From positions 1 through 34,076 of the forward strand of contig JAKLKB010000064.1 in the NCBI GenBank assembly GCA_023150835.1: a DNA stretch of 34,076 bases, given 5' to 3'. This document shows positions 5,177-34,076 of this stretch, piece by piece. Origin of the DNA: Myxococcota bacterium. Its GTDB lineage: Bacteria; Myxococcota_C; UBA6777. A model generated the notes under the pieces. The model made no database searches. It saw only the letters and a program-made list of their open reading frames with translations, and had not been told where the DNA came from. Position numbers and translations under genes: made by a program. Every line of letters starts with the position of its first letter. Position 1 is the stretch's first letter.

Positions 5177-5300
5177 ATACGAAATCCGCACATGGTTGTG
5201 ATCGCAAAAATTAGGGGCAGCCCGCTGTGGCTGCCCAACCACAGGGCATCTACAGCGGATCGCACCTACCCTTCGATCACCCTTCTTTCGAAGATCGTAC
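5177..5300 (-). repeat. Dispersed repeat family 2, copy A
   Basis: Read on the minus strand, this block contains TGATCGAAGGGT, GATCCGCTGTAGATGCCCT, the hairpin GGGCAGCC/GGGCTGCCC, TTTTTGCGATCACA and a right end reading GCGGATTTCGTAT. It starts 43 nt after the stop of the thioredoxin-like gene, in that gene's orientation, and precedes dus. The left end is weakly preserved (GTACGATC). Confidence 0.7.
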
Positions 5301-5343: not shown

Positions 5344-5973
5344 TTACCAACGCCAAGAAGATTTGTATTTGACCGAACAGCCGTAGGGACGGGTGAGTTT
5401 GGTTTGAACAGGCTTTCCTGCCAATACGGCATCCACAGCAGCGGTGACGTAGTTTTGGGCTTTTTTGTTGTCTTCGGGGTTGGTGGAGCGGATGCTGTCG
5501 AGGGCTCCCATGTACACGAGGATGCCTTTGGCGTCGATGACGTACATGTGGGGGGTGGTTTTGGCGTTGTAAAGCTGGCCGACTTTGCCTTCGGGATCGA
5601 GCAAGATGGCGTTGGCTTGGCCTTTTTTGGCGGAGTTGATCTCGTTGGCTTGTTTGGCGGGGTAGTAGCCTTGTTTGCCGGGGGCCGAAGACACGATCGA
5701 GAGCCAGATCACGCCTTTGTCTCGGTAGGCTTTTTGGATGGCTTGGATGTGGCCGCTGTCGTAATGTCGTTTGACAAAGGGACAGCCGTGATTAAGCCAT
5801 TCAAGGACGACGATCTTTCCCTTGTATTGGGAAAGATCATGGTTCTTTCCAAACGTATCAGGAAGGGTAAAGGCCGGAGCGGCTTGATCGACTTTGATCT
5901 TTTGGGGAGCGGCATGGACGGAAACGGGAAGCGAGCACAACAGGCCGAGTGCAACGGCAAAAACAAAGCGCAT
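5344..5973 (-). CDS. Exported thioredoxin-fold (redoxin/AhpC-TSA-like) protein
   Basis: A 209-residue periplasmic protein with a signal peptide (residues 1 to about 21, ending VHA) and a thioredoxin/AhpC-TSA fold. The conserved segment APAFTLPDTFGK is followed by VVLEWLNHGCPFVKRHY, where Cys64 stands alone in place of a CxxC pair. TTPHMYVIDAKG, with the family's cis-proline, follows at about residue 145. A single peroxidatic-type Cys suggests a peroxiredoxin-like or thiol-redox role on exported proteins, but the substrate is unknown. AGGAG precedes the ATG. The TauE exporter lies 114 bases upstream on the same strand and a family 2 repeat separates it from dus. Confidence 0.85.
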   Translation of the reverse strand: MRFVFAVALGLLCSLPVSVHAAPQKIKVDQAAPAFTLPDTFGKNHDLSQYKGKIVVLEWLNHGCPFVKRHYDSGHIQAIQKAYRDKGVIWLSIVSSAPGKQGYYPAKQANEINSAKKGQANAILLDPEGKVGQLYNAKTTPHMYVIDAKGILVYMGALDSIRSTNPEDNKKAQNYVTAAVDAVLAGKPVQTKLTRPYGCSVKYKSSWRW

Positions 5974-17375: not shown

Positions 17376-20300
17376 GTGTTGTTATCCATTCAATCCAAAA
17401 GACAGAGCGGTCCGATGTTATGGCGATGGGCAGCGTGTTTGTCCCTTCTGATCGGATGCTTGATATTGTTGAGTTGCGAAACTTTTCCGAGCAAGCAGTT
17501 GATCTTTTCGGAGGGAGCGTGTGATCCAGCGATCTGGCACCAAGCCTTTGCGCGTGAGTACGACGATCCGCTGCTTGGTATCCAATCCCCCGAACCTTAC
17601 CGCACGATCTTCAAGGACGGGGTGGAGTTTGCTTGCCTTGTGACCTCTTGGCGCAATCGTGAACCCAACGACGATCGCAAGCATTATACGCGGCTTTTGG
17701 TCAAAGCAGATGGATCGATGACCCACCTCGATCCGATCCAAGATCGCAACGAGCCGATCTTGCGCCTGCCCAAAGACTCCGACAAAGCCGAAGATATCAC
17801 CTTTACGCTGTTTTTTGTGCGTAAGGACTTCTCTCTCCCCGATCTTCACCACGCCACCTGCAAACTGATGCAGTCGCCCACCTTCCAATGCTTCTCCAAA
17901 GAAGGCTCTCAGCGGTGCTTGTGGTTTTTGCGCCTCTTCCCCAAAGATCCCGATGGGACGCTCAAGATCAAACGATGGGACACCTTTGGCGACAAGCCGT
18001 TGCGCTTGCCCGCAGAGTTTCGCAAAGACCTCCCCGACACGCAGCGAGAGGCTTTGTTTCGCAGTTGCCGCTTGTGCGTTCCCGAGGTATGCGACAACGA
18101 AGACAACGATTGCGACGGCAAGATCGACGAAGACGAAAACAACACAGGGGACTATACTCTCGCAAAGACCTGCTACAACGGCTCCAAAGACACGCTTGAT
18201 CCTGAAACGCGAAAGCCTCTTGGCATCTGTCAGCTTGGAACCAAGGTCTGTCAGCGCGGCGGTGGATACGGGACCTGTAGCGATCGCCGCGCAACCACCG
18301 AAGTCTGCAACGGCAAGGACGACGACTGTGACGGACGCACCGACGAAGAAGACGGCAGCACGCCACTTTGCCCAGAAGGCTTTGTGTGTCAGTCAGGTCT
18401 CAGCGATCCCAACAATCCCAAAAGCGAGATCACGGCTCGTTGCGAACCTCCCCCCTGCTTTTCGCCGCGCAAAGAATGTGGTGGCTTTTGCACCGATATC
18501 TTGCTTGATCCCCAAAACTGCGGCGATTGTGGACGTCGCTGCTTGTCTGGAGAAAAGTGCGAAAAAGGTTTGTGTGTCCTCGATTGTCCCGATGGTACGC
18601 CGACTCCGTGTGCGCGTTCGTGCGTCGATCTGCAAAACAACAACAACCATTGCGGTGCTTGCGGTAGCGTCTGCCCCGAAGGCTATCGATGCAAAGACGG
18701 GCGTTGCGAAGTCGGCTGCCCTCCGAATACACCGATCGTTTGCGGCCAAGGCTGCTACGACGTTTCCGATAACCCCAAGCATTGCGGCTTTTGCGGTCGG
18801 ATCTGCCCCGATGGTTATCGTTGCGCAGGGGGCGATTGTTTGATCTCTTGTCCCCAACGCACACCCACCAACTGCGATGAATCGTGCATCGATCTGCAAA
18901 CCAATCCCTCGCATTGTGGGGCATGCAACCGCCGTTGCGCTCCAAGCGAGTACTGCGCCAACGGCGCTTGTGTGCTCGGATGCCCCGATAGTACGCCTTC
19001 CGATTGCAACGGCGCGTGTGTCGATCTCAAAACCAACCCCAACCATTGCGGACGCTGCCGCCTTGTGTGCAAAAGCGGTGAGCGCTGCTTTAACGGCAAG
19101 TGCGTGATCTCTTGCCCTGCGCAAACTCCCACCGATTGCAATGGCGCGTGTGTCGATCTCGCCATCAACCCCAACCATTGCGGTACTTGCGGTGCCGCCT
19201 GCAAGTCGGGCGAAAAATGCTCCAACAGCAAGTGCGTCCCCGACTGTCCCGCTCGTACGCCGATCGATTGCAACGGCGCGTGCATCGATATCCAAAGCAA
19301 CCCCCTGCACTGCGGGGCTTGCAACAACGTCTGCCCCGCAGGTCAGAAATGCTCAAATGGTCGATGCGTTTTGGATTGTCCGCCCCAAACACCCGTCAAT
19401 TGCAACGGTGCGTGCATCGATATCCAAAGCAACCCCCAACATTGCGGAACCTGCGCCAAAGTCTGCGCCAACGGCCAACGCTGTTCGAGCGGCCAATGCG
19501 CACCCTCTTGTCCTGTCGCAACCCCCACAAGCTGCCAAGATGCTTGTGTGAATCTTCAAAACGATCCCAACCATTGCGGTGCTTGCAACAAAGTCTGCGC
19601 CAACGGCCAACGCTGTCTCAGCGGAGTCTGCGTGGTCTCTTGCCCCGCGCAAACCCCCACCGATTGCAACGGCGCTTGTGTCGATCTCAAAACCAACCCC
19701 AATCACTGCGGAGCCTGTGGAAAAGCCTGCAAGAGCGGGGAACTTTGCTTTAATGGAACTTGCCAAACCTCTTGCCCTATTGGAGCGCCCTTGTGTGGTA
19801 GTGGCGCAAACGGCACGTGTTGCAGTTTGAATTGCTGCACCAACGCTTGTGTTGACTTGCAAAACGACCGAAACAACTGCGGCGTCTGCGGAAAAGCCTG
19901 CGCCGCAGGACAGGTCTGCTCGAAGGGCGTCTGTGAGCAAAACTGCCCAACCAACGCCCCTTCTTGCGGAAGCGGTGCTTCGCGGACCTGCTGTAGCTTG
20001 ACTTGTTGCGGAGGGACGGATTGTGTGGCTCTCAGCGACAACCCCAATCACTGCGGTCAATGCGGCAAGATCTGCCCCTCTGGTCAAAGCTGCTGCAGCG
20101 GAACGTGCGTCGATCTGCGAAACAACAAGAACAATTGTGGAGCTTGTGGCCTCAAGTGCGTTGCTGCCGAAGTTTGCACGTCGGGACGCTGTTGTGCAAA
20201 TGGCCATCTGTGGTGTTCCAATCTCTGTATCAACCCGCAAAACAACAACCAACATTGCGGAGCTTGCGGGGTGGTGTGCAACGCACCGACCACTTGTTTA

Positions 20301-20630
20301 AACGGCGTGTGTGCCTGTCCAAGCGGCGGGACGGCTTGTGGCAACGAGTGCGTTGATCTCAAAACCAACAACCGCCATTGTGGGGCTTGTGGCAAACTGT
20401 GCGAAGGCGGTTCCACTTGTGTGAACAGCGTTTGTACTTGCCCGACAGGGCAAAACTTTTGCAACGGCAACTGCGTGAACTTCAAGACGGATCCAGCGCA
20501 TTGTGGGGCTTGTGGAAACGCTTGTGCGCAAGGCAAAAATTGCAGCAACGGAAACTGCGTCTGCCCCGCTGGAAAGGAAGATTGCCGAGGTACCTGTGTG
20601 GATGTTGGGACGTGTCCTCCCGGTCCTTGA
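17376..20630 (+). CDS. Large Cys-rich lipoprotein: MopE-type motifs and 16 Stig1-like repeats
   Basis: A 1084-residue exported protein. A hydrophobic leader ending in the lipobox-like ILLSC suggests lipoprotein anchoring, probably outer membrane. Residues about 40-235 form a unique N-terminal domain. Two acidic MopE-type metal-binding motifs follow, near 236 (DNEDNDCDGKIDE) and 308 (NGKDDDCDGRTDEED). From about residue 361 come sixteen Stig1-like units, each with a CVDLxxNPxHCGxCGxxC core and CxxGxC end. Units 2-10 are exactly 44 residues, joined by CPxxTP; two later units have an inserted CCSLxCC segment. The many disulfides imply a rigid surface stalk or binding scaffold. Start options are GTG 17376 or ATG 17415, the latter giving a tidier leader; both have weak ribosome sites. 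HIT and Kelch genes follow. Confidence 0.88.
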   Translation: MLLSIQSKRQSGPMLWRWAACLSLLIGCLILLSCETFPSKQLIFSEGACDPAIWHQAFAREYDDPLLGIQSPEPYRTIFKDGVEFACLVTSWRNREPNDDRKHYTRLLVKADGSMTHLDPIQDRNEPILRLPKDSDKAEDITFTLFFVRKDFSLPDLHHATCKLMQSPTFQCFSKEGSQRCLWFLRLFPKDPDGTLKIKRWDTFGDKPLRLPAEFRKDLPDTQREALFRSCRLCVPEVCDNEDNDCDGKIDEDENNTGDYTLAKTCYNGSKDTLDPETRKPLGICQLGTKVCQRGGGYGTCSDRRATTEVCNGKDDDCDGRTDEEDGSTPLCPEGFVCQSGLSDPNNPKSEITARCEPPPCFSPRKECGGFCTDILLDPQNCGDCGRRCLSGEKCEKGLCVLDCPDGTPTPCARSCVDLQNNNNHCGACGSVCPEGYRCKDGRCEVGCPPNTPIVCGQGCYDVSDNPKHCGFCGRICPDGYRCAGGDCLISCPQRTPTNCDESCIDLQTNPSHCGACNRRCAPSEYCANGACVLGCPDSTPSDCNGACVDLKTNPNHCGRCRLVCKSGERCFNGKCVISCPAQTPTDCNGACVDLAINPNHCGTCGAACKSGEKCSNSKCVPDCPARTPIDCNGACIDIQSNPLHCGACNNVCPAGQKCSNGRCVLDCPPQTPVNCNGACIDIQSNPQHCGTCAKVCANGQRCSSGQCAPSCPVATPTSCQDACVNLQNDPNHCGACNKVCANGQRCLSGVCVVSCPAQTPTDCNGACVDLKTNPNHCGACGKACKSGELCFNGTCQTSCPIGAPLCGSGANGTCCSLNCCTNACVDLQNDRNNCGVCGKACAAGQVCSKGVCEQNCPTNAPSCGSGASRTCCSLTCCGGTDCVALSDNPNHCGQCGKICPSGQSCCSGTCVDLRNNKNNCGACGLKCVAAEVCTSGRCCANGHLWCSNLCINPQNNNQHCGACGVVCNAPTTCLNGVCACPSGGTACGNECVDLKTNNRHCGACGKLCEGGSTCVNSVCTCPTGQNFCNGNCVNFKTDPAHCGACGNACAQGKNCSNGNCVCPAGKEDCRGTCVDVGTCPPGP

Positions 20631-23425: not shown

Positions 23426-24025
23426 ATGGGGTTTATGGATTCCCGCCTGATCCATCTGGAAAACGGTACACCAATTCGCCTCCGCAATCCCGGCATCGCC
23501 GATGCCCGCCGCATCCTCGCTTACCGAAAAAAGGAGGCCCACACCCACGACTTTGAAGTCGTCACCGCCGAAGAGATCAAGGACGACGAAGAACTTCAAC
23601 GCAAATGGTTGTTTAGCTACATCCAAGAACCGAACAAACTCTGCTTGATCGCAGAGACCCTCGATCCCCGAAATAGCGAAGTCGTCGGGATGCTCGACTT
23701 TTATGGGCATCCTTGGCTGCGACTCGCTCACCACGGAACGATGGGCATCGGCGTGGCTTTGGCTTGGAGAGGACGAGGTATCGGGCGTGCTTTGATCCAA
23801 ACCATGATCGATTGGACTCACCGCCACCCCACCATCGAAAAGATCTATCTCGGCGTGTGGGCCAACAACCTTCGCGCCCAAGCCCTTTACACCTCCTTTG
23901 GTTTTATCGAAGAAAGCCGCCGGTTGGCCTATTTTAAACTCGATCACGGCCATTATGTCGATGAGATCGTCATGGCCCTCTGGGTGAAAGATCCCCTCCG
24001 ACTCGCCTACCTTCGTTCCTCCTGA
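23426..24025 (+). CDS. GNAT family N-acetyltransferase
   Basis: A 199-residue GNAT-fold acetyl-CoA-dependent acetyltransferase resembling the RimJ/RimL-type and amino-sugar acetyltransferase group. The acetyl-CoA-binding signature is seen as GVALAWRGRGIGRALIQ, followed by KIYLGVWANNLRAQALYTSFGF, the usual GNAT end motif. The N-terminal half has RLRNPGIADARRILAYRKK. No signal peptide is present. GAGGAGG lies ten bases before the ATG and overlaps the end of mtnD, so translation is probably coupled. An ATG at 23435 is also possible. The acceptor substrate is unknown, and the tie to methionine salvage is only positional. A family 2 repeat begins 29 bases after its stop. Confidence 0.88.
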   Translation: MGFMDSRLIHLENGTPIRLRNPGIADARRILAYRKKEAHTHDFEVVTAEEIKDDEELQRKWLFSYIQEPNKLCLIAETLDPRNSEVVGMLDFYGHPWLRLAHHGTMGIGVALAWRGRGIGRALIQTMIDWTHRHPTIEKIYLGVWANNLRAQALYTSFGFIEESRRLAYFKLDHGHYVDEIVMALWVKDPLRLAYLRSS

Positions 24026-24054: not shown

Positions 24055-24202
24055 ATACGATATCTGTGAGAAGTGTACACGAAGAGGCGATGCGATCCGT
24101 TGTAAACGCCCTGTAGTCGGGCAGCCACAGGGGGACTGCCCCTACCTTTTTCGAGGAGGACTGCCCCTACCTTTTTCGATCACACCATGGGGGGATCTCG
24201 CA
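24055..24202 (+). repeat. Dispersed repeat family 2, copy B (with internal duplication)
   Basis: It starts ATACGATATCTG 29 bases after the GNAT stop, in the gene's direction. It includes GATCCGTTGTAAACGCCCTGT, the GGGCAGCC hairpin arm and a TTTTTCGATCACA right side. The segment GGACTGCCCCTACCTTTTTC (24133-24152) is repeated at 24158 with an offset of 25, so part of the hairpin region has duplicated. The right terminus is eroded. Confidence 0.75.
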
Positions 24203-24267
24203 CAATTGCTGCGGTCTTTTGCGTGCGACCGCTGCGATAGATGTCGGTCGTTGCGGCTGTTTGCGCT

Positions 24268-30725: not shown

Positions 30726-30754
30726 TTGACACTTTCCGAGGGGCTTCCTATGTT
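30726..30754 (+). promoter_or_regulatory. Sigma-70-type promoter
   Basis: TTGACA (30726-30731), a 17-base spacer and TATGTT (30749-30754) lie before the LeuA-domain gene. Transcription would begin near 30761, which argues that coding starts at 30867 or 30879 rather than at the upstream in-frame ATG at 30750 that overlaps the -10 box. Confidence 0.5.
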
Positions 30755-30878: not shown

Positions 30879-31448
30879 ATGCACATACGACATCAAGACT
30901 CTGTGCGTTTGATCCAAGAAACCCTGCAAGAAAATCGTTTGCGGATGGAGCTCGTTTCTTTTCATATCGACGAGAGCATGGGCGAAGAACCCAGTCGGAT
31001 CTTGGCGACGCTCAAGCGCTTTCCTGAAGAAGAGTCGGTGACGCTCGAAGGCGCAGGAGTAGGGGCCTTTGACGCTTTTTTTGTGGCAGTTAAAGAGCGC
31101 TTTTCCTCGCAGTATCCGAGCTTAAAAGGCATCCGCTTTGCGGGGATAAAACTGCGCAGCATCCCTGATTCGGATCGCGAGCATCCCACCGATGCGGAGG
31201 CCGAAGTCACCCTGCGTTTTCAAAGTGTCGACAAACAAGATTATTACTTCATCGCTCGCTCGCGCAGTATGTTGCGCGCCAATATGGAGTGCATCTTGCG
31301 GATGGTCGAGTTTTTTGCGAACTGCGAAAAGGCCACACAAACCCTTCAAGAACGCCTGCGCGAGGCCCAAAAAGCCGAACAACGCGACGTCGCGCAACAA
31401 CTCCAATCACAGATCGCCTTGCTTAGCACACATCACGTCCGACCCTAA
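30879..31448 (+). CDS. Free-standing LeuA dimerisation (allosteric) domain protein
   Basis: A 189-residue protein whose middle part (about 50-145) reads like the C-terminal regulatory domain of 2-isopropylmalate synthase: EESVTLEGAGVGAFDAFFVAVKE (quoted in part), then IKLRSIPDS and a DAEAEVTLRF strand. In LeuA this domain binds leucine for feedback inhibition. The catalytic barrel is wholly absent, so it is not LeuA itself. An N-terminal helical segment and a C-terminal, Gln/Glu-rich, probably coiled-coil tail (LQERLREAQKAEQRD) flank it. It may sense an amino acid or regulate another enzyme, as inference. Start candidates are ATG 30879 and GTG 30867. Its TAA stop overlaps the first base of the family 2 repeat. 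Confidence 0.7.
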   Translation: MHIRHQDSVRLIQETLQENRLRMELVSFHIDESMGEEPSRILATLKRFPEEESVTLEGAGVGAFDAFFVAVKERFSSQYPSLKGIRFAGIKLRSIPDSDREHPTDAEAEVTLRFQSVDKQDYYFIARSRSMLRANMECILRMVEFFANCEKATQTLQERLREAQKAEQRDVAQQLQSQIALLSTHHVRP

Positions 31449-31787
31449 TACGATATCCGAGTCATCTATGATCGAAGGAGAGCGCGTAAACGCCCTATCC
31501 TTGGGCAGACACAGGGGGCTGCCCCTACACCTTTACGCCCGATTCTTGGGCAGCCACAGGGGGCTGCCCCTACCTCTTTACGCCCGATTCTTGGGCAGCC
31601 ACAGGGGGCTGCCCCTACACCTTTACGCCCGATTCTTGGGCAGCCACAGGGGGATGCCCCTACACCTTTACGCCCGATTCTTGGGCAGACACAGGGGGCT
31701 GCCCCTACACCTTTACGCCCGATTCTTGGGCAGCCACAGGGGGCTGCCCCTACACCTTTGCGATCATGCGCCCTGCGGATTTCGTAT
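31448..31787 (+). repeat. Dispersed repeat family 2, copy C (expanded)
   Basis: It begins ATACGATATCC with its first A as the last base of the preceding gene's TAA stop. It includes ATGATCGAAGG and GTAAACGCCCTA, then an expanded 45-bp hairpin array, and ends TTTGCGATCATGCGCCCTGCGGATTTCGTAT. It sits between convergent LeuA-domain and PLP enzyme genes. The 340-base length compares with about 124-148 for the unexpanded copies. Confidence 0.8.
31501..31762 (+). repeat. 45-bp tandem repeat array, about six units
   Basis: Units start at 31501, 31546, 31591, 31636, 31681 and 31726 (last partial). Each has TTGGGCAGCCACAGGGGGCT, GCCCCTACACCTTTACGCCC and GATTC, with a hairpin GGGCAGCC/GGGCTGCCC in every unit. 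Variants are few: units 1 and 5 share an A in the first arm, unit 2 has CTC for ACC, and unit 4 has an A in the second arm. There are no unique spacers, so it is not a CRISPR. Confidence 0.93.
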
Positions 31788-31871
31788 GACTTGGTGGGTT
31801 AGGGGATCTCTTGGAGGATCTTTGCAAGTATGACTTGGTGGGTTAGGGGATCTCTTGGAGGATCTTTGCAA
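31784..31871 (+). repeat. 44-bp perfect tandem duplication over a gene end
   Basis: A 44-base unit beginning GTATGACTTGGTGGGTTAGG at 31784 is repeated exactly at 31828. The second copy contains the last codons (KILQEIP) and the TAA stop of the minus-strand PLP enzyme; the first copy repeats them just downstream of the gene. Confidence 0.93.
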
Positions 31872-32802: not shown

Positions 32803-32865
32803 CAACACCCCCATCGAGGATCTTGGCGGCTTATACAAACACGGACGTCTGTGCTGTCGTGAAAA

Positions 32866-32940
32866 TGTAGTAGGGGACCCCCGTGACTGCCCGAGCATAG
32901 GGCGTCTACGCACGACCCTTCGATCACACGGATATCGTAT
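32866..32940 (-). repeat. Dispersed repeat family 2, copy D (3' truncated)
   Basis: On the minus strand it begins ATACGATATCCGTGTGATCG and continues AAGGGTCGTGCGTAGACGCC, CTATGCTCGGGCAG and GGGGGTCCCCTAC. Its first base is the final A of the PaaX gene stop codon TAA, as in copy C. The right inverted repeat is missing. Confidence 0.7.
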
Positions 32941-33788
32941 TACACAAAAGCAGATGTCTGCGATATCATCGGGCGATAGGGGGCTGTGAGGGTGGGGATA
33001 TGGGAGATCGGTTGGATGATCTGTTCCCAGACCAAGCGGCTTTGTCGATCGTAATGCAGCATCGTATCGCGGAGGCGTCGGCGCAGATCTTCGCGGCAAA
33101 GCGGCGGCGGCAGCAACGGATCAAGCAGCAAAAGCCGCATGGCTTCGGAGCCAAGCCAAAAACTCTCTCGCCCTGCTTCTTCGGGGGTGAGATGCGGAAA
33201 TTGAGACACGCTAGACTCCAAGCGCTCGATCATCTGCGTGTATTGGCGATGCAGCTTTTCGATCGACCACAGCTTGGTGATGGCTTTTTCGGGGGCAGGA
33301 TTCCAGTCGGAAAGCCGAAAGATCGGCGCTTGTGCTTCGAGCCCCAGATTGCGAAGTCGATCGCGGGTTCGCTCGATCCCACCGCGCAGATTGTTCGGGC
33401 GCAACTCAAGTCCCGCACACCATTGACGAAAACCCAGCAGCTTGAGTGCTCGTTGCCGTTGACGAGCCGTTTTGCGCTGCGAAGACAGCCCCGCTGTATG
33501 CACCCCGATCCAAGTCCCATCCCACGTCTCGACTTTTTCTTCGATCTGACGCCACGCCGCGATCTCTTCACTCAAGGCCCGTGCCGCAGGCCCCAGACGA
33601 TATTCGCCCCGTCGCCCCAACTCCACAAGCCGCTCTTGTTTCAGCCTTGCCAACGTCACTCGCAAACAGTTCTCGTTCACGCCCAACAACGACATCCCAT
33701 ACACAAGCCCCTGCACTGGAACATACGTCGGCCCTGCCGCTGTCAACAGTTGCAAGATCACTTTGCGCGTCGATGGATTCTCCGACAT
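32940..33788 (-). CDS. PaaX-family transcriptional regulator
   Basis: A 282-residue DNA-binding protein of the PaaX family, known for repressing phenylacetate catabolism genes in response to phenylacetyl-CoA. The winged-helix N-terminus shows RVTLARLKQERLVELGRRGEYRLGPAA at about residues 43-68, a typical PaaX recognition region, and the C-terminal PaaX domain follows with WDGTWIGVH. No phenylacetate gene is in this window, so its target and ligand are unknown. GAGG six bases before ATG 33788 supports the start, and a sigma-70 promoter lies at 33874-33902. The stop codon shares its last base with a family 2 repeat; the PLP enzyme gene lies downstream on the same strand. Confidence 0.82.
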   Translation of the reverse strand: MSENPSTRKVILQLLTAAGPTYVPVQGLVYGMSLLGVNENCLRVTLARLKQERLVELGRRGEYRLGPAARALSEEIAAWRQIEEKVETWDGTWIGVHTAGLSSQRKTARQRQRALKLLGFRQWCAGLELRPNNLRGGIERTRDRLRNLGLEAQAPIFRLSDWNPAPEKAITKLWSIEKLHRQYTQMIERLESSVSQFPHLTPEEAGRESFWLGSEAMRLLLLDPLLPPPLCREDLRRRLRDTMLHYDRQSRLVWEQIIQPISHIPTLTAPYRPMISQTSAFV

Positions 33789-34051: not shown

Positions 34052-34076
34052 ATACGATATCCGCAAGATGTGTGAT
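34052..34076 (+). repeat. Dispersed repeat family 2, copy E (cut by the window end)
   Basis: The last 25 bases read ATACGATATCCGCAAGATGT then GTGAT, matching the left terminal inverted repeat of the family. Whatever follows is beyond the window. The preceding stretch (33789-34051), apart from the PaaX promoter, shows no gene that I can support. Confidence 0.75.

Follow-up and report, generated by a model that had tools for sequence, protein, structure and literature searches.

The window, by which the whole analysed stretch of 34,076 nucleotides of a Myxococcota genome is meant, contains five stretches that belong to one short repeat family. One of them (31448..31787, minus, strands being those of the profile consensus) carries a 45-bp core hairpin unit, ACGCCCGATTCTTGGGCAGCCACAGGGGGCTGCCCCTACACCTTT, repeated six times in tandem (31490..31759). 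The other four are a plus-strand copy whose right end is decayed and which lies 44 bp beyond the stop of the minus-strand gene 5344-5973 (5177..5299), a minus-strand copy that has a segment of its core duplicated and its far end decayed, starting ~30 bp past the stop of the gene 23426-24025 (24055..24203, the far limit being approximate), a plus-strand copy without its left end (32848..32940) and a further minus-strand copy of which the contig end leaves only the first 25 bases (34052..34076). A sequence-only reading of the window had described five copies with both inverted ends; the five members of one family stand, but both ends are intact only at 31448. That reading had also observed that the four copies with a visible gene follow its stop codon, which is confirmed, and two of them (31448 and 32940) use the stop itself as the TNA at their edge. 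At the 31448 copy, the upstream gene stops with the TAA at 31446-31448, which also serves as the outer TNA on that side of the element, while a TGA (31787-31789) has this place on the other side; the middle bases therefore no longer agree, and the duplication at this copy is not clean. In the 32848-32940 copy, the TAA stop codon of the minus-strand gene that ends at 32940 doubles as the right TNA, which reads TTA at 32940-32942.

Some other features of the window were observed alongside these repeats. Directly upstream of the 31448 element, positions 30903-31448 encode a small protein whose only match is to the LeuA allosteric (dimerisation) domain (E 9.4e-06, obtained by scanning a longer frame starting at 30726). 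A perfect 44-bp tandem duplication (31784-31871) starts in the last four bases of the same element and spans the stop codon of a convergent PALP-family gene; judged by coordinates, it is absent from the sister species. A 1084-aa ORF (17376-20630) matches STIG1, a family known from plants, ten times with a repeat period of 132 bp.

The repeats are a real, genome-wide family. The search of the whole genome with the terminal repeat, which had been proposed from the window, was productive: the 12-base end motif ATACGATATCCG, allowing at most one mismatch, has 939 matches in the 7.56-Mb genome as against 1 for the reversed motif. The sample used for closer analysis covered ~1.4 Mb of this genome and ~1.1 Mb of the genome of a sister species, G001. 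An oriented profile derived from full copies gave 262 matches in 1.41 Mb, corresponding to ~220 elements, and 0 in the reversed sequence, and it defines the strand of the element well, the better strand being ahead by a median of 83 bits. For counts of position and core, the profile matches were grouped as 187 blocks. Because contigs with matches are over-represented in the sample, the genome copy number was scaled by end-motif counts (237 in the sample and 939 in the genome), which gives roughly 700-900 copies.

A typical full copy measures 113-116 bp (~115 bases), and its profile consensus, ATACGAGATCCGCCCGTTGTGTGATCGTAAAAATGTAGGGGCAGCCCCCTGTGGCTGCCCAATAATAGGGCGTCTACGTACTATCCTTCGTGTACACATCACTCGGATATCGTAT, contains no gene by inspection. 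The imperfect terminal inverted repeats start with TACGA(T/A/G)ATCCG (ends in sequence letters: TACGATATCCG), and the outer A and T of the consensus are part of a 3-bp TNA duplication, a feature that goes beyond the sequence-only reading, as do the six-fold 45-bp core at 31448 and the absence of that copy from the sister species. TNA flanks 78 copies on both sides, and in 59 of these the two middle bases are identical, whereas 10,000 permutations gave 19.6 on average and 35 at most; when only isolated copies are considered, it is equal in 42 of 56 with 14.3 expected. The target preference comprises a W centre (TWA) and S-G just outside the TNA, the latter being a modest preference at isolated ends (SG flank 32% vs 17%). 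A strong 11-bp palindromic target, SGnnTNAnnCS, had emerged from the first analysis and is partly an artefact, because the element's own CG adjoins the TNA at occupied sites and abutting copies were counted.

The core is modular, with tandem units, mostly of 45-122 bp, in 23 of the 187 blocks, which occur in differing registers and are often near-identical. Such near-identity suggests recent duplication at palindromes, with MAG assembly error as another possible source, and the hairpin core would have been secondarily amplified in tandem in some copies such as that at 31448. Examples of this amplification, within or across elements, are L038:7240-7516, L093:8550-8739, L075:15942-16355, L081:11367-11808 and 31490-31759 of the window. 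Some solo ends are parts of mosaic copies with other cores. Another repeat family, with a TAGGGGCGGTTCGCGAACCGCCCCTA-type hairpin, was observed outside this element (L034:19426, L037:4441, L040:19313, L046:11806, L049:15466, L075:16644 and L083:258), and its hairpin also takes the place of the core in some copies of the element, for example at L052:5065 and L049:8761.

Comparison with the sister species, which belongs to the same genus and whose longest stretches in common are mostly 88-94% identical (about 92%), revealed both occupied and empty sites. The end pattern has 221 matches in G001 and is near chance level in three other members of the bacterial family and in more distant genomes; a scan of the genome collection with the pattern gave at least 15 matches, and all matches listed came from the MAG 'Myxococcota bacterium isolate KLAP109'. 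At L079:12271, the arrangement GCCGCC-TAA-[element]-TAA corresponds to GCCGCC-TAA-CTCCC in G001, and since the empty site has a single TAA, this insertion took place on a TAA stop and duplicated it. L084:6000 likewise has a clean empty site in G001, with TCA as the target; both sites were read from the printed sequences, the global alignment being untidy there. At L047:474, a full element is present here and only a short remnant in G001, and some insertion sites, including the 24055 locus of the window, are occupied in both species. The sequences on either side of the 31448 copy have alignments of equal length in G001 C166 (7658-7104 and 7112-6157), and thus this element together with ~70 bp of adjacent, partly duplicated sequence is absent in G001. 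Judged by coordinates, the 32848-32940 locus seems to be empty there as well.

With terminal inverted repeats, a TNA duplication, no gene and empty sites in the sister species, the element qualifies as a miniature inverted-repeat transposable element (MITE) with past mobility. It is short and non-coding, its high copy number is dispersed over the genome, and copies are present in one sister species and absent from the other. Of the three roles proposed from the window, that of a MITE with an insertion preference is consequently the one borne out, and the family is very probably a TNA-targeting non-autonomous DNA transposon whose survivors gather where they are harmless.

A transposase with matching ends, which had been suggested as a target of search, was found neither in the ~2.5 Mb sampled from the two genomes nor at the readable transposase loci. 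No autonomous element with MITE ends was found in this sample, nor any solo end pairs with matching flanks 700-5000 bp apart, and long pairs with equal TNA were few. Searches for transposase families (PF13586 and PF01609 in this genome; PF13359, PF13358, PF13340, PF01797 and PF05598 in both) yielded few matches overall. PF13340 and PF13359 had no match in either genome, and none of the transposases at the loci of PF13586 and PF01609 is bounded by a pair of MITE ends. At L111/L116, complete short MITE copies adjoin a degenerate transposase fragment, and at L115 there is one isolated 11-base match to the MITE end. A separate short element was observed at L116:1463-1880 (G000 C238); it has GAGGGTGTTTGCGAAAAAGTG ends, is flanked by TTA at either side, carries a degenerate IS5-like transposase fragment and abuts two adjoining MITE copies. 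An IS630-type copy at L110:18675-19723 (G000 C225) has its transposase in two overlapping frames and its own ends, which differ from the MITE ends. IS5-family elements of the IS1031 type make a 3-bp TNA duplication, and an origin from this family was considered and set aside; the duplication is as expected, but no IS5-type transposase with MITE ends was found at the readable loci. The partner transposase may be extinct, may be unsampled or may belong to a family outside those searched.

Regarding position relative to genes, which were called with a home-made gene caller, 0 copies lie inside called genes, though 79% of the sample is coding, and 149 copies are placed between two called genes; a gene stop falls within the element in only two blocks. 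Copies number 47 in the 27 kb of convergent gaps and 22 in the 84 kb of divergent gaps. An excess of this kind is also described for the BOX, RUP and SPRITE repeats, where it is interpreted as possibly marking them as mobile parasites whose insertion downstream of genes is tolerated (PMC3049150). Exactly on a stop codon are 43 element ends (36 TAA and 7 TGA), those at 31448 and 32940 of the window among them, and ~10% of the TAA stops in the sample (36/357) carry a copy, with a raw hazard at stops 2.5 times that at nearby TNA sites. These figures could be taken as a sign of active targeting, in which transposition would be directed to gene 3' ends or stop codons. However, in a discrete-hazard regression over TNA sites up to 200 bp past stops, with terms for TWA centre (OR 3.1), SG flank (OR 2.8), convergent gap (OR 3.2) and distance, no extra effect is left at the stop (OR 1.1-1.2, z below 0.6), and TNA is also the target of the many insertions that lie elsewhere than at stops. 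The special stop-codon targeting that the raw excess had implied disappears with this adjustment, the 3'-end targeting envisaged by the sequence-only reading is unneeded, and active targeting of stops is highly improbable.

A role at transcript ends, also raised from the window, would mean that the transcribed hairpin terminates, processes or stabilises the mRNA of the gene upstream and is selected after stops. The location of copies past genes and between convergent genes is in line with it, as are the reported effects of ERIC and Correia elements on transcripts (PMC10969869). Most of the single copies tested also have a better fold than shuffled sequence, as is expected of palindromes. The orientation of copies is, however, at odds with such a role: they had been described as lying in the gene's own orientation, whereas in codirectional gaps 41 copies have the same orientation and 36 the opposite one (p=0.65), and ends facing a stop within ~50 bp show a weak skew (55 vs 36, p=0.06), the four-of-four agreement in the window being a small-number effect compatible with chance. 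The sequence-only reading had named two observations that would speak against its view of the placement, of which random orientation is what the genome presents and insertion within genes as often as after them is not. Terminator-like sites (a stem followed by a T-run) are absent from the copies in the scanned region, namely the 31448 and 32848 copies, no Rfam family matches the window at gathering thresholds, almost no compensatory change was found in the element alignment (covariation term -0.11; two-sided change in 1 of 20 pairs), and copies differ between the sister species at conserved genes. Selection for a function at transcript ends is very unlikely. There is a slim chance that elements were co-opted as orientation-independent 3'-end hairpins, acting in mRNA decay or blocking convergent read-through, with amplification of the core tuning the effect. 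The GC-rich internal hairpin, the intergenic position and the high copy number would also suit REP/BIME-type repeats moved by a RAYT (Y1) transposase instead of a DDE element. Against this are the long terminal inverted repeats and the TNA duplication, the latter seen also at pairs of empty and filled sites; REP elements are not known to make a TNA duplication. Moreover, Y1_Tnp gives only two marginal matches here and no match in the sister genome, where the element is present too, making such an origin barely credible.

The post-gene placement of this MITE is thus best read as TNA-targeted transposition that would have been followed by filtering through selection. A DDE transposase acting in trans would have cut and pasted the element by its inverted ends, with insertion at TNA sites, preferably those with TWA and flanking S-G. 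Insertions in coding sequence or promoters would have been lost by selection and those downstream of genes tolerated, so that the position after genes may represent a survival filter. Where the element enters at a TAA or TGA stop, the gene would keep its stop through the TNA duplication and suffer no harm. The apparent rule that elements sit on stop codons then follows from two plain facts, namely that TNA includes TAA and TGA and that the duplication regenerates the stop. A practical consequence concerns assembly, as a MITE copy lies no more than 150 bp from 18 of the 78 contig ends examined, the window's copy at 34052-34076 being one such case, compared with 3.75% expected for a random 150-bp stretch; the assembly breaks at these copies, and the MITE accounts for part of the fragmentation of these assemblies. 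The family adds a high-copy, genus-restricted, TNA-duplicating MITE, whose partner transposase was not found in our searches, to a little-studied Myxococcota lineage.

Among known systems, RUP of Streptococcus pneumoniae (107 bp) resembles this MITE in being small and non-coding, with inverted ends, a target duplication, more than 100 copies and a convergent-gap excess (PMC3049150, PMC2229807). By its description RUP is set apart, since it uses a TA target and has a partner, IS630-Spn1, with matching ends, whereas TNA is used here and no partner was found. The BOX elements of the same species combine fixed ends with an internal module that can occur more than once (PMC3049150), comparable to the six 45-bp cores at 31490-31759; they differ by being built from the defined units boxA, boxB and boxC, whereas the amplified units of the MITE vary in length and register. 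Correia/NEMIS and ERIC are likewise palindromic MITEs of ~100-200 bp located between genes, for which promoter and RNase effects are reported (PMC10969869, PMC2229807), and differ by their TA termini as opposed to TNA here, Correia being set apart here by its target. BrickBuilt of Porphyromonas gingivalis, a MITE with an internal minisatellite, is like the 31448 copy in its organization, but it has IS5-like GAG... ends, 23-bp units and 19 copies (PMC4596501). The ends of the IS5 family begin with GAG... (PMC4596501), and those of the MITE described here begin otherwise.
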